Of a DNA stretch of 64,000 bases, positions 21,174 to 25,705 are shown in pieces; within the stretch, counting starts at the first letter, position 1, and every line of letters starts with the position of its first letter. The DNA is from Colwellia sp. BRX10-3. GTDB taxonomy: Bacteria; Pseudomonadota; Gammaproteobacteria; Enterobacterales; Alteromonadaceae. The stretch lies in assembly GCF_014077505.1 (NCBI RefSeq), contig NZ_JACGWA010000001.1, positions 744,001 to 808,000 of the forward strand, in the 5' to 3' direction. Under the pieces are notes generated by a model. The model had not been told where the DNA came from. It did not search any database and worked only from the letters and a program-made list of their open reading frames with translations. A program made the translations under genes and the position numbers.

Positions 21174-22322
21174 TTATAAAACACTATACTTGCTAAAGAC
21201 TTTATAAAGTTCAGTACCTTGATTCACACTTGCTGAAGCAAAATGTAAAATAGGGATAACACTATGATCAAGACTTATATAGTGTAATGGATCGCCGTCA
21301 CCGTAATTATCCATACGAAGAATACGTGCTAAAGGCTCGCCTGCAGATAAAGGCTGACCAAACTCTGCTAAATAATCCACCATGCCACCCATCGGCGAAT
21401 AAAGCGCTTTATAGTTCTCTAGCATACAGCTATATCTAATCATGACTTTTGGATGGTAATCATGGCTATTTATCACCCCTTGATACTGCAAGTAACTTAA
21501 AATTCCCAATGCATCATCATGAGCCACGTCTAAATCAATCTGCTCTTGCGAACCCAGTTCAACGGTAAAGCTTTCTTTGATCACCGCATCTTTACCTTGA
21601 TTAGCGTCAGTTTTCGTTATTGGAAAATCTCTTCCTAATTCAGCAAATTTAAGTTGTAAGCACCACCAAGGACAAAATGTTGCTTCATCTAACGCGCCAT
21701 CAAAACCATTAGGGATAAATAAAACATGTGGAATGTCAAAATATTTGGCACTGACTTGCGCATATTCAGGGCAATATAAGTGCTTACTAGAAATTGGCCC
21801 CGTGTGCAGATCCAATACAATATCAGCCTGATGTGCTAAACGTTGTAGCTGAAAGGCAATACGCTGACCCGTTGTAAGACCATAAATATTATGATTTAAT
21901 TTTTGCGATATTTGTTCCAGCATTAAGGCTTTAAAAGCACGCTCAATCTCAACAGCAGACTCAGTTAAATACGCCTGTGCAAAAGGCTCTATAATATTTT
22001 CGTCAAAATGATACATGCGATTCCAGTTAACACCGGTAATTGGATCAAATCGACCTAAGGTATATTCACCATTTTTGTGGTTACAAGCGACAGGGTTGGC
22101 ATAAGGCACCAGTGTAATACTGCCATTTAATTCAAGGGTTTTTAATTGCTCTAGCAACTGAAAAATAACCGCATTGCCTTGCACTTCTGCGCCATGCATA
22201 TTGGCTTGTATGTAAACGTCAGGCCCTCGCTGTTTACCTTTGATACGATAAACTGGCACGGTAAGCGCAGCACCACTGGCCATTTCACCCACATGCATGA
22301 CTTCTTTACTAATTAAATTCAT
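21174..22322 (-). CDS. AstE/aspartoacylase-family zinc deacylase, possible desuccinylase of a lysine intermediate
   Basis: The 382-residue M14-like zinc hydrolase has QANMHGAEVQG (metal ligands His and Glu in HGxE), an NRMYHFDEN segment, VLDLHTGP (third metal ligand His) and FTVELGSQ (catalytic Glu). The family removes acyl groups such as succinyl from N-acyl amino acids. The C-terminal part (about 300-375) resembles the beta-rich domain of the succinylglutamate desuccinylase/aspartoacylase family. It is the last gene of the lysine-riboswitch operon, 38 bases after the decarboxylase gene. No dapE lies in the operon, so I infer it cleaves a succinylated lysine precursor. The exact substrate is not shown by the sequence. 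Confidence 0.75.
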   Translation of the reverse strand: MNLISKEVMHVGEMASGAALTVPVYRIKGKQRGPDVYIQANMHGAEVQGNAVIFQLLEQLKTLELNGSITLVPYANPVACNHKNGEYTLGRFDPITGVNWNRMYHFDENIIEPFAQAYLTESAVEIERAFKALMLEQISQKLNHNIYGLTTGQRIAFQLQRLAHQADIVLDLHTGPISSKHLYCPEYAQVSAKYFDIPHVLFIPNGFDGALDEATFCPWWCLQLKFAELGRDFPITKTDANQGKDAVIKESFTVELGSQEQIDLDVAHDDALGILSYLQYQGVINSHDYHPKVMIRYSCMLENYKALYSPMGGMVDYLAEFGQPLSAGEPLARILRMDNYGDGDPLHYISLDHSVIPILHFASASVNQGTELYKVFSKYSVL

Positions 22323-22360
22323 AAATAACCTATACCAATCGACCTAATTTATTGACCACG

Positions 22361-23623
22361 TTAGCGTAAATACCAAGCAGCGGGCTGTGCTGCACGTATT
22401 TGCTCAATTTTACCTTGCTGCAAGACATATTCTGCCGCTATTTGATGACAAAGGAAAAATGGCATACTTTCGGTAAAGCCATATGCGCCGGCTAAACCAA
22501 ATATTAATGGGTCATCAACCGCAACATCACTGGCAATCGCCAAGGTGCCCAATTTATCTAAACTGGTACACAATGGACCATGGAGATCAAAATAAACCGG
22601 GCTTGCTGATGATTCTCTGATCATAGCCACAGGAAATGGCTGTTCAGTAATTGCAGGACGAATTAAATGATTAATACCACCAGCGAGCACTAATTGTTGG
22701 TGTTGAAAATTTTCTTTACGGTCAACGACTGAGGTTACGTAATAGCCCATTTCTGCAACCGCAAAACGACCTAATTCCAACCAGAGCTCGCTAACGCCTG
22801 CCCGAGCTTTTATTTTTGCTAAGCTGGCAACAATTTGTTGCCAGCTTAAGCCTTGCCCTGTTTGCAGGTAATCAACACCTAGGCCACCACCTAAATCTAA
22901 TACCTCTAAGGTCATTTCTAATTGTTCTGCCAAAGACAACAATGGCGTTACCATTTGTGACCAAAGCTCAAACATACGTTCATTGCTCAGCATATTTCCC
23001 CATTGGAAAATGTGTAAGCCATTGATATTCAGTGCAGGAAAATCGCTTACTTTTATAGTTTGCCACGCTTGGCAAGATAAACCAAAGGGCGTAACTTCAT
23101 TACCACCTAAAGGGTTTTTTTCTCCTTCTTGCCACTGTAATTGCACTCGCAACAACACTTGCGGTTGGCAAGAAAGTTCACTAGCTGCTTGGTTAAGCCA
23201 TTGTAACTGGTTCAAACTCTCTACCACAAAAGTACGCACACCTTGGGCCAGAAAAGCTTTTATTTGTCGCTTTGATTTAGCTGGACCCGTGTTAAGAATG
23301 CGATCTGCTTTAACATTTTGTGCTAATACTTGCGTTAATTCGCCCTGACTTGCCACATCAAAGTTAAATCCTTGCTGCGCTAAGGTTTGTATCACCCGCG
23401 ATAATGGGTTTGCCTTAACAGCAAACCAAAGCTTAATAACGTCTTGTTTCATCAGCATTGCCAAGTGTTGCTCAAGATAGTCTAAATCGTAAAGAAAAAA
23501 ACCTTCTTGATCTTGCTCAGCTTCAGCACTATTTTTCAGTACATCAGTGTGCTTAGCACATGCTTCAAGTACAGACGCCCTAAGCCAGTTTGGCCTAGGT
23601 GTATAATTTATCATTGCAGTCAT
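22361..23623 (-). CDS. fold-III PLP-dependent decarboxylase, divergent from LysA
   Basis: The 420-residue alanine-racemase-fold decarboxylase has the PLP lysine in WFAVKANPLS. The glycine-rich phosphate loop is DLGGGLGVDY. Standard diaminopimelate decarboxylase motifs are altered: HIGSQ is HIFQWGNM, EPGR is ELGR, and CESGD is replaced by GPLCTSLDKLG. These variants resemble the BtrK/PvsE-like and exosortase-associated decarboxylases, which act on conjugated amino acids. AGGA lies six bases before the ATG. It is in one operon with dapA, dapD and a deacylase, so it very likely serves lysine synthesis, but possibly on N-succinyl-diaminopimelate rather than free meso-DAP. Confidence 0.7.
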   Translation of the reverse strand: MTAMINYTPRPNWLRASVLEACAKHTDVLKNSAEAEQDQEGFFLYDLDYLEQHLAMLMKQDVIKLWFAVKANPLSRVIQTLAQQGFNFDVASQGELTQVLAQNVKADRILNTGPAKSKRQIKAFLAQGVRTFVVESLNQLQWLNQAASELSCQPQVLLRVQLQWQEGEKNPLGGNEVTPFGLSCQAWQTIKVSDFPALNINGLHIFQWGNMLSNERMFELWSQMVTPLLSLAEQLEMTLEVLDLGGGLGVDYLQTGQGLSWQQIVASLAKIKARAGVSELWLELGRFAVAEMGYYVTSVVDRKENFQHQQLVLAGGINHLIRPAITEQPFPVAMIRESSASPVYFDLHGPLCTSLDKLGTLAIASDVAVDDPLIFGLAGAYGFTESMPFFLCHQIAAEYVLQQGKIEQIRAAQPAAWYLR

Positions 23624-23631
23624 TTTTGTTC

Positions 23632-24381
23632 CTAGCGCAGTACAGATTCAAGCTCTAAAGCGGCATTACTTTTTTCATCACGGTATTTAACAATTAGCGC
23701 ACAAGCCATGCTAAGTCCTTGCTGCTCAGCCCAAGCCCCCGTAACCGGTCTTGTACCTGGTACAACTACAGCATTTTCAGGAATATCAGCACCTTTTTCC
23801 AATATCACATTATTTACACAGTCATAAACAGGTACCGATGCCGACAACGAAACACCCGGTGCTAATACCGCGCCCTTTTTCACTACAATACCTTCAACAA
23901 TAATAACGCCAGCACTTAAGAAGGCATTATCTTCAATGATCACCGGACTAGCACCAATAGGTTCAAGCACACCACCAATTTGCACCGCAGCAGAAACATG
24001 GACATTTTTGCCTATTTGCGCGCACGATCCAATCAATGCATGGCTATCAATCATAGTGCCACTATCAACAAAAGCGCCAACATTAATATAGGCTGGTGGC
24101 ATTATAATAACGCCCGGTGCTACATAAGCACCACGACGAACCGATGAACCACCAGGTACCATCCTAACTTTATCAGCAACCGTAAACTCTCGCGCAGGCA
24201 AATTATGTTTATCAACAAAGCCTTGGTAAATACCATCAAATTCGATATTTTCTCCGGCTTTAAATGCCGCTAAAATGGCTTGTTTTACTGACGTGTTAAC
24301 TTGCCAAGTACCCTTGCTATTTTGTTCTGCTGCACGAACTTTACCGGTTTCTAAGTCTGTTAATGTTTGCTGCCAAGTCAT
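23632..24381 (-). CDS. dapD: tetrahydrodipicolinate N-succinyltransferase, short form
   Basis: The 249-residue left-handed beta-helix acyltransferase has [54 protein letters not shown] and [17 protein letters not shown], all DapD landmarks. It is about 25 residues shorter than E. coli DapD and its [18 protein letters not shown]-type sequence is closer to the short DapDs I associate with Bacteroidetes and others. It uses succinyl-CoA to acylate tetrahydrodipicolinate. Its ATG overlaps the dapA stop by 4 bases. The housekeeping dapD of gammaproteobacteria normally sits near glnD, so this may be a second copy. Confidence 0.88.
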
Positions 24382-25388
24382 TGATTTATTTCTCGTAAGT
24401 TAGTTGTTGCTAAAGATTGGGTGGCTACCGCATTGAAAAAGCTATCTGAAGCATGATGCTGAGCTAAGAGATTGCTACTGTTATTTTCTAGCCATTGTTG
24501 AATTTGTTGATGGATATCGTGTAAGCCGTGTTGGGCTGAAATCTCTTCTTCACATAGGGGTAAACGAAGTTTTGAAGAGCTAATGGTTTTCAGTTCAGCC
24601 ATTAAAACTTTTACTGGGATTGGGCTAGCCACTTGAAATAATGCCGATATCGCCTTATGCCAGAGCGGAAAAAGTCCATCATGTTGATGAGATAATGCCA
24701 TAGCGACATATTGTCTGGTTGCTTCTGGCCAAACGTTAGCGCAAACAGACACTAAACCTTTCACCCCTGCACTAGCAAGATAAGGCATCATGGCATCTTC
24801 ACCACTATACAAGTCAACATTCGGGCAATGTTGACGATAGGCTAGCAGTTTATTGAGATCGCCACTCGCCTCTTTAAGTGCCCAACAGTTTTTATGATTT
24901 TGCACTTCTTGCAAGGTTGAAAGTGAAATTTCAACACCCGTGCGCGAAGGTACGTTATAAAGCATGCAAGGAAAGTGTGCGACATCGAGTAAGCTTTTAA
25001 ACCAAATCGTTTGCCCTGTTGGGCCCGGTTTGGCGTAAATTGGGCTGGCAAGTAAGAAGGCATCTATTGATAACTTATTACATTTTTCTATCCAGACAAG
25101 TTGCTCGTTGAGGTTATAACCCCCAACGGCAACCATGATGGGCACCTTAAAAGACATAGCACAGACATATTCAACAATGCTTAAATGCTCTTGCGCGGTT
25201 AACGCTAAACCTTCACCCGTGCTACCCAGTAATAAAATGCCATTGTTGGCGGAATTTTGTTGTAAAACTAGCTGACGTAAACTGCTGTAATCAATTGCAC
25301 CATCATCAAATAATGGCGTGATCAAAGCAGTCCAAACCAATGGTAGGTCTGTGATGGAATGATTTTCTATCGATTTTTTTTGATTCAT
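24378..25388 (-). CDS. dapA: 4-hydroxy-tetrahydrodipicolinate synthase family protein
   Basis: The TIM-barrel aldolase has [16 protein letters not shown] at the N terminus, GSTGEG (Ser where E. coli has Thr44, the next Thr kept), YNVPSRTG (catalytic Tyr and Arg) and ALKEASGD with the Schiff-base Lys. A C-terminal extension of about 35 residues follows the barrel. The longest frame begins with TTG at 25439, with ATGs at 25403 and 25388. The ATG at 25388 (336 residues) is preferred because GAGAG precedes it and that site is hidden in a hairpin downstream of the lysine riboswitch. The housekeeping dapA may be elsewhere. Confidence 0.88.
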
Positions 25389-25418
25389 TTCTCTCGAACT
25401 CATGTCGTTCGGAGAACT
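25389..25418 (-). promoter_or_regulatory. hairpin sequestering the dapA ribosome-binding site
   Basis: On the minus strand TTCTCCGAAC (25416-25407) pairs with GTTCGAGAGAA (25399-25389) with one bulge. The stem covers the GAGAG before ATG 25388 and puts the ATG at 25403 in the loop. AAGTTCTCC (25419-25411) can instead pair with GGAGAGCTT (25485-25477) at the 3' side of the riboswitch P1 region, nine pairs with one G-U. This fits a translational on/off switch. Confidence 0.6.
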
Positions 25419-25467
25419 TTTAGGCGCTTGTGCAGACAAAATTTCTAGGACGAAATTTGGCCTTTAC

Positions 25468-25705
25468 AAAGGCCAGAAGCTCTCCACCTAATAGGTGACA
25501 GTTGCAAGGATTCAACCTAATACCAATCAGACTAATCTGTTTGGTATAGCGCTTAATTGTTATTTATTAACAACTAAGCTTTAACAACCGGCAATAGTAT
25601 TATCAAAAATACCATTGCCTCGGCGTTATACCCCCTCATTATTGCTCATTAGAGTTTGATCTCTTCACAATAATTACCTGGTTAACGCTCCTCTTCTGGC
25701 CCTTT
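25468..25705 (-). promoter_or_regulatory. lysine riboswitch (L box)
   Basis: The minus strand reads GGCCAGAAGAGGAGCGTT, then GAGGGGGTATAACGCCGAGG, then AACTGTCACCTATTAGGTGG and GGAGAGCTTCTGGCCTTT. These match in order the conserved blocks of the lysine aptamer (compare the E. coli lysC leader). P1 forms between 25693-25705 and 25468-25479. P2 ends (GCGTTA/TAACGC), P3 (GGCAATGGTATT with AATACTATTGCC) and P5 (CACCTA/TAGGTG) can be drawn. Two extra hairpins lie between P3 and the TTGAAT loop of P4. The leader precedes the dapA operon, so lysine should repress it. Confidence 0.92.

Follow-up and report, generated by a model that had tools for sequence, protein, structure and literature searches.

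What does a lysine-regulated operon with its own decarboxylase and deacylase contribute to a genome that already holds the usual lysine genes? The question is raised by a locus of Colwellia sp. BRX10-3, within a stretch of 64,000 nucleotides (here the window), in which paralogues of dapA and dapD (dapA2 and dapD2) are followed by dec, encoding a fold-III pyridoxal phosphate (PLP) decarboxylase, and by a gene for an AstE/aspartoacylase-like deacylase (here astE), all behind a lysine riboswitch (Table 1). The best single explanation, which had been put forward in the initial annotation of the window and to which we give about even odds, is that N-succinyl-LL-diaminopimelate (N-succinyl-LL-DAP) would be decarboxylated by a dedicated L-centre decarboxylase and the N2-succinyl-lysine so formed would then be desuccinylated, separating the supply of lysine from meso-DAP and the cell wall. 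Such a branch, under riboswitch control, may quite conceivably run through the Colwellia-like marine bacteria and also through lineages further removed.

The order dapA, dapD, decarboxylase, AstE-like gene behind a lysine riboswitch, as first read, is borne out by the aptamer score, by the open reading frames and by its conservation in relatives. Between dapA2 and dapD2 there is an overlap of 4 bases, and the gaps that follow are only 8 bases (dapD2 to dec) and 38 bases (dec to astE), so the layout is that of a single transcript. The riboswitch match spans model positions 1-182 of 182, against a gathering score of 30 bits, and no other Rfam match occurs in the window at that threshold. Folding of the leader (25710-25380) is much stronger than that of 100 shuffled sequences (z -7.1). 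Promoter and terminator scans gave matches no more frequent than in shuffles, and the operon contains no dapF. The dapA2 reading frame begins at TTG, and its true start may be the ATG at residue 13 or 18. Its product keeps T45, Y133, R138 and K161 of E. coli DapA and differs at several lysine-site positions. DapD2 falls below the TIGR00965 cut-off (194 of 375 bits), and its identity across the single-piece matches among 38 loci from a contig scan (see below) is 76-95%.

Table 1. The riboswitch and the genes of the operon, in positions of the window.
Feature	Position	Strand	Evidence
Lysine riboswitch aptamer (RF00168)	25469..25703	-	cmscan 93.2 bits, E 2.5e-23
dapA2, 4-hydroxy-tetrahydrodipicolinate synthase paralogue	24378..25439	-	TIGR00674 254 bits, cut-off 206
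dapD2, tetrahydrodipicolinate N-succinyltransferase paralogue	23632..24381	-	NF008808 300 bits, cut-off 204
dec, fold-III PLP decarboxylase, predicted N-succinyl-LL-DAP substrate	22361..23623	-	PF02784/PF00278
astE, AstE/aspartoacylase-like deacylase, predicted to free succinate from N2-succinyl-lysine	21174..22322	-	PF24827 96.7 bits, cut-off 25

The residues around the pocket of the decarboxylase carry much of the argument. Against the LysA model TIGR01048 dec scores 190.8-191.1 bits and does not reach the cut-off of 297.9. An alignment was made of 59 dec sequences (55 loci, the window and three loci of the outside family f76; the contig-cut locus L040 was left out) and 44 LysA sequences, comprising 30 usual-type and 13 second-type sequences and that of E. 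coli. The likeness to LysA extends to the fold III, the glycine loop and the Arg-Pro of the specificity helix (R322-P323 in 59/59 dec and 44/44 LysA), and the PLP lysine, the arginine of E-x-G-R, the catalytic cysteine and the phosphate tyrosine are common to all rows; K70, R322, C352, T353 and E385 are invariant throughout dec. The residue after the catalytic cysteine is Thr (T353) in all 59 dec and Glu in all 44 LysA. Further differences are fixed: Gly instead of Thr in the lid (173), Phe instead of His at 206 (the His of HIGSQ), His instead of Asp at 319, Glu instead of Met at 385, and Thr (58 sequences) or Ser (one) instead of Tyr at 326, after the Arg-Pro. The FLxH motif at 390-393, in a C-terminal loop of the FTESMPFFLCH type, is present in dec and lacking in LysA. 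The loss of LysA signatures reported initially is real and general in the family, in which a HIFQWGN-type loop, ELGR and CT[SA]xD recur. The exchange of EPGR for ELGR is not diagnostic, the arginine being shared by the 59 dec and 44 LysA rows and ELGR occurring also in seven TIGR03099 rows.

These differences can be read chemically. In TmDAPDC, the LysA of T. maritima, Arg249 and Arg285 bind DAP by its distal carboxylate, and Glu315 binds it by the distal amino group; of 19 replacements reported, E315T took away most of the activity on DAP and left an enzyme acting mainly on 2-aminopimelate, a compound without that amino group (PMC8277567). When TmDAPDC numbering is assigned to dec positions via motifs, dec looks like a natural E315T, since Thr replaces the Glu while the distal-carboxylate Arg is kept; its substrate would have a far carboxylate and a blocked far amino group. 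Because dec stands between the DapD and deacylase genes, N-succinyl-LL-DAP is the natural candidate, and because the free amino carbon of this compound is L, an L-centre decarboxylase would be needed. The lid, PLP-face and C-terminal loop motifs of dec resemble those of decarboxylases acting on conjugates; the L stereocentre itself is a prediction. FigC, a citryl-conjugate decarboxylase, likewise has a different residue at the side-chain amine contact beside the cysteine, and the same paper gives L-amino-acid conjugates for FigC, SbnH and AcsE (PMC7857480).

Like SbnH, FigC, AcsE and BtrK, dec has no acid placed to bind a free amine on the side chain; the Cys-Thr and FLxH motifs of dec are found in SbnH and BtrK in printed PDB alignments. 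It differs from SbnH in having Leu, Met or Ile for K347, and R304 of SbnH lies one place earlier; unlike the conjugate decarboxylases, dec keeps the Arg-Pro register of LysA and lies in a lysine operon and not in a siderophore or antibiotic context. Cys-Thr is present also in four siderophore-type and seven TIGR03099 comparison rows, none of which has Arg at 322 (0/4 and 0/7), the siderophore-type Arg sitting one place earlier. Three of the four siderophore-type rows are from plasmids with adjoining IucA/IucC genes, and the fourth (L172) owes its grouping to the tree alone. Against TIGR03099 (exosortase-associated decarboxylase) dec scores 194.6 bits, short of the cut-off of 478 that the seven comparison rows pass, and the SGNFGQ insertion of the TIGR03099 specificity helix is absent from it. 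The best PDB sequence match of dec is 6knh, titled SbnH (siderophore decarboxylase), and in Foldseek LysA and SbnH structures rank side by side. A first tree of 68 rows contained long outliers; in the final tree of 60 rows, from which L160 (E. coli LysA), L170 and L174-L179 were dropped, dec is sister to the four siderophore-type rows with support 94/86. The AlphaFold model of dec shows the fold (mean pLDDT 81, pTM 0.83), and as the loops around the active site (318-325, 353-355 and 383-389) are modelled with a pLDDT below 50, no pocket argument is drawn from it.

The genome of BRX10-3 (G000; 3.87 Mb, completeness 100) contains the canonical genes elsewhere: lysA (549 bits) with dapF adjoining it (DapF model 315 bits, cut-off 115), dapD (480 bits), dapE (561 bits) and another dapA, which scores 224 bits on TIGR00674, above the cut-off and below dapA2. 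Since all five are present, the operon is an additional, parallel set, and the case of a genome with no other lysA, envisaged in the initial annotation, does not apply. The operon locus is absent among the four matches of the genome to the DapE model (TIGR01246). The other dapA (L050, G000:C46:38913-39704) looks like that of a plant-type synthase; its product shares 37% identity with E. coli DapA where the two align.

The same coexistence was looked for in 58 genomes (one counted twice), namely 19 with dec, the genome G072 and the 38 behind the contig-scan loci: LysA is above its cut-off in 57 of them and DapE in 55. The exceptions are drafts or metagenome-assembled genomes; G096, without LysA above cut-off, is a 450-contig draft, and the three without DapE above cut-off are G029, a 220-contig draft, and the metagenome-assembled G401 and G410 (loci L011 and L020). 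G003, another genome of the genus of G029, has DapE and no AstE-like match, which settles nothing on a replacement of DapE. DapE is above cut-off in all 46 genomes that have an AstE-like gene without dec. Replacement of DapE or LysA by the operon was rejected as a general explanation because both coexist with it nearly everywhere. One of the 55 DapE matches, that of the dec-containing genome G411 (locus L021; G411:C2:565415-566386), holds three stop codons and is a pseudogene or an assembly error. For the usual LysA type 29 loci were fetched (L117-L145, two of them belonging to one genome), and dapF adjoins lysA in all 29, the match in L138 being partial. A second canonical LysA type (L146-L158, e.g. 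L146 5090-6367) is 45-49% identical to the dapF-linked type, has no dapF match within the fetched stretch, and is the only type listed above cut-off in part of the Colwellia relatives.

The contig scan of public genomes yielded 38 dec loci, in Colwellia and relatives such as Thalassotalea. Among 394 genomes drawn from the same order, 65 have AstE-like genes (E up to 1e-30), and 19 of these have a dec orthologue (471-767 bits), in every case beside astE and dapD2; 369 genomes drawn from the class added three more dec, all from one small-genome genus (f76 g164; 2.0-2.1 Mb, GC 33% in two stretches read), with scores of 460-476 bits. A match of 178 bits in genome G627 carries TIGR03099-type motifs and was excluded as dec. 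Together with the window, 60 dec loci were read (38 from the contig scan, 18 fetched, three of f76; L034 and L083 are of the same genome). The survey of gene order in relatives gave dapA2-dapD2-dec-astE in 39 loci, dapD2-dec-astE in ten and lysC-dapA2-dapD2-dec-astE in seven, all of the latter in genus g34, while dec-astE was read in the contig-cut L040. Thus dapD2 precedes dec in 59/60 loci, the remaining one being contig-cut, an AstE-like gene follows dec in 57/60, the dec-astE pairing is kept also in ten loci where dapA2 was not found, and lysC stands in front in 10/60. The constant core is dapD2-dec; dapA2, lysC and astE are variable.

In two loci of f76 that were read gene by gene (L186 and L188), a dapB-like reading frame lies between lysC and dapA; that of L188 passes PF05173 (DapB_C) and that of L186 is below the DapB cut-off (82 of 122 bits). 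There dec is followed by an amino acid permease gene in L188 and a dihydroorotase gene in L186. In L098 (genome G029, of the distant family f4) dapD2-dec-astE has homologues of pmbA and yjgA as neighbours, just as it does in the window, a likeness that points to an ancient common locus.

Riboswitches were sought with RF00168 in the 65 genomes with AstE-like genes and counted when upstream of astE on the same strand within 7 kb. An aptamer is present in 16 of the 19 genomes with dec, in all 26 of the group f6 g24, which we take to be Shewanella-like from the solved relatives of the AstE-like protein, and in one of the remaining 20. The deacylase has the catalytic domain of the AstE/aspartoacylase family (PF24827) and is close to the solved chains 3fmc (409 bits) and 3lwu (393 bits), whose entries name them no more precisely than (putative) succinylglutamate desuccinylase / aspartoacylase. 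Among the NCBIfam models it has no AstE equivalog match, its only match being DoeB, far below cut-off (36 of 403 bits). Where it aligns with E. coli AstE its identity is about 30%, and unlike that enzyme it lies beside lysine genes and not those of arginine catabolism. H43, E46, H173 and E255, presumably the zinc ligands and the catalytic glutamate, are invariant in 17/17 aligned AstE-like proteins. In the read loci L101-L105 (four of f6 g24, one of f15) lysC stands directly before astE, with a riboswitch upstream and without dec; the lysC products of three of these five loci were scanned, and all three match the lysine-sensitive aspartokinase 3 model above its cut-off, like one LysC of g34 and one of f76. 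Neither lysC, dapD2 nor dec was found beside the AstE-like gene in two loci of the sister genus f6 g46, G072, G331 and nine other read loci. Two arrangements place the AstE-like gene among lysine genes behind a lysine riboswitch, which ties its product to lysine, and the lysC-astE arrangement shows that it has a role without need for dec.

The pathway that we infer from this would be a dedicated, lysine-repressed branch. DapA2 and DapD2, together with the housekeeping DapB and N-succinyl-DAP aminotransferase, would produce N-succinyl-LL-DAP, steps that are shared with the succinylase DAP branch (DapA, DapB, DapD, DapC, DapE, DapF, LysA), of whose DapA and DapD families DapA2 and DapD2 are members. 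The decarboxylase would form an external aldimine at the free L-amino carbon, grip the far carboxylate by R322 without requiring a free far amino group, and release CO2 to give N2-succinyl-L-lysine, which the AstE-like enzyme would hydrolyse to L-lysine and succinate; lysine would switch the operon off via the riboswitch. In contrast to the succinylase branch, decarboxylation is predicted to precede desuccinylation, and neither LL-DAP nor meso-DAP would be an intermediate. The meso-DAP made by DapE and DapF would be left for the cell wall, and since both enzymes remain for that purpose, the description "DapE/DapF-independent" used initially fits the lysine branch only.

Several observations weigh against this pathway. 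Canonical LysA is nearly always kept and never convincingly lost, and no natural knock-out proves the new route sufficient. The three f76 loci have lysC-dapA2-dapD2-dec without astE in the cluster; in the opposite direction, 46 of the 65 genomes with AstE-like genes lack dec, 26 of them (f6 g24) with the riboswitch upstream of astE, and G072 (L099) keeps astE beside rsmC at a site where dapA2, dapD2 and dec were not found. The E385 of dec, an acid near the pocket that LysA lacks, might bind a free amino group, and apart from H319 and H393 dec showed no newly invariant basic residue that could hold the succinyl carboxylate. TmDAPDC E315T retained a preference for the D centre (PMC8277567), so that exchanging Glu for Thr is not by itself enough to move the reaction to the other centre. 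Nor does the tree test reject dec as sister to LysA (p-AU 0.379). For the branch as a whole, the checks proposed at first mostly speak in favour, namely the parallel gene set and the conserved gene order, as does the residue pattern, and the retention of LysA and the separate occurrence of dec and deacylase argue against.

The tree, E385, f76 without astE and AstE-like genes without dec keep two other readings in play. It is possible, if rather doubtful, that the enzymes are ordinary isozymes, the AstE-like protein a second succinyl-DAP desuccinylase and dec a second meso-DAP decarboxylase, and that the operon only raises lysine flux under riboswitch control. An AstE-like gene beside lysC or with no operon partner and in either case without dec, dec at the place of lysA in the f76 cluster that has no astE, the retained Arg-Pro and the duplication of dapA and dapD by the operon itself would all fit; what isozymes explain poorly is the loss of the amino-binding Glu in 59/59 dec, an exchange by which TmDAPDC loses the greater part of its activity on DAP (PMC8277567), along with lid and PLP-face motifs that differ from LysA, an operon without dapF, and the fact that nearly all these genomes have a canonical DapE and LysA in any case. 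The last two steps might also run in the reverse order, the AstE-like enzyme making LL-DAP from N-succinyl-LL-DAP and dec then acting at the L centre, so that DapF alone is bypassed. Although this would account for lysC-astE without dec, would agree with dec motifs resembling those of L-amino-acid enzymes (PMC7857480) and would give E385 a part in amino binding, it is unlikely: the distal amino group would still be free, contrary to the Glu-to-Thr change, LL-DAP is already supplied by DapE, and dec without astE in f76 would fit only if fed by DapE. That the operon makes another lysine-related metabolite, such as a decarboxylated or acylated DAP derivative, with lysine acting as regulator only, is highly improbable. 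Its closest solved sequence homologue being a siderophore decarboxylase speaks for this, but no siderophore or carrier-protein gene was recognised near dec in the few neighbourhoods read (the window, L186, L188, L091, L093 and L097), the deacylase ends the cluster in nearly all loci and lysC precedes it in some.

An operon of this kind has probably been seen before. In the available part of a riboswitch survey, Pseudoalteromonas haloplanktis has a riboswitch operon dapA-dapD-lysA-hypothetical1-hypothetical2 (Table 1 of PMC5584792), likened here by riboswitch and gene order alone, and Colwellia psychrerythraea a riboswitch before a dapD; the P. haloplanktis genes are treated there as ordinary lysine biosynthesis, and that part discusses no altered decarboxylase or new route. 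In genus g34 (L091, L093, L097) astE is followed on the same strand by genes for a small protein with an S4 domain (PF13275) and for one of the DUF454 family, the models having been run on L091 only; these are perhaps the two hypotheticals of that operon. By title and abstract, neither a succinyl-lysine route nor this gene combination is described in any paper that searches of the open-licence PMC literature listed, an absence that is weak evidence.

The conserved operon is real, and its decarboxylase differs from LysA in a manner that makes chemical sense. As far as we know the DAP routes, LysA draws lysine from meso-DAP in them, and lysine and cell wall therefore compete for one pool. If the proposed branch is true, branching before LL-DAP would remove this competition for meso-DAP; it would change the annotation of LysA and DapE and would be relevant to lysine engineering and to the judgement of DapE and DapF as drug targets.

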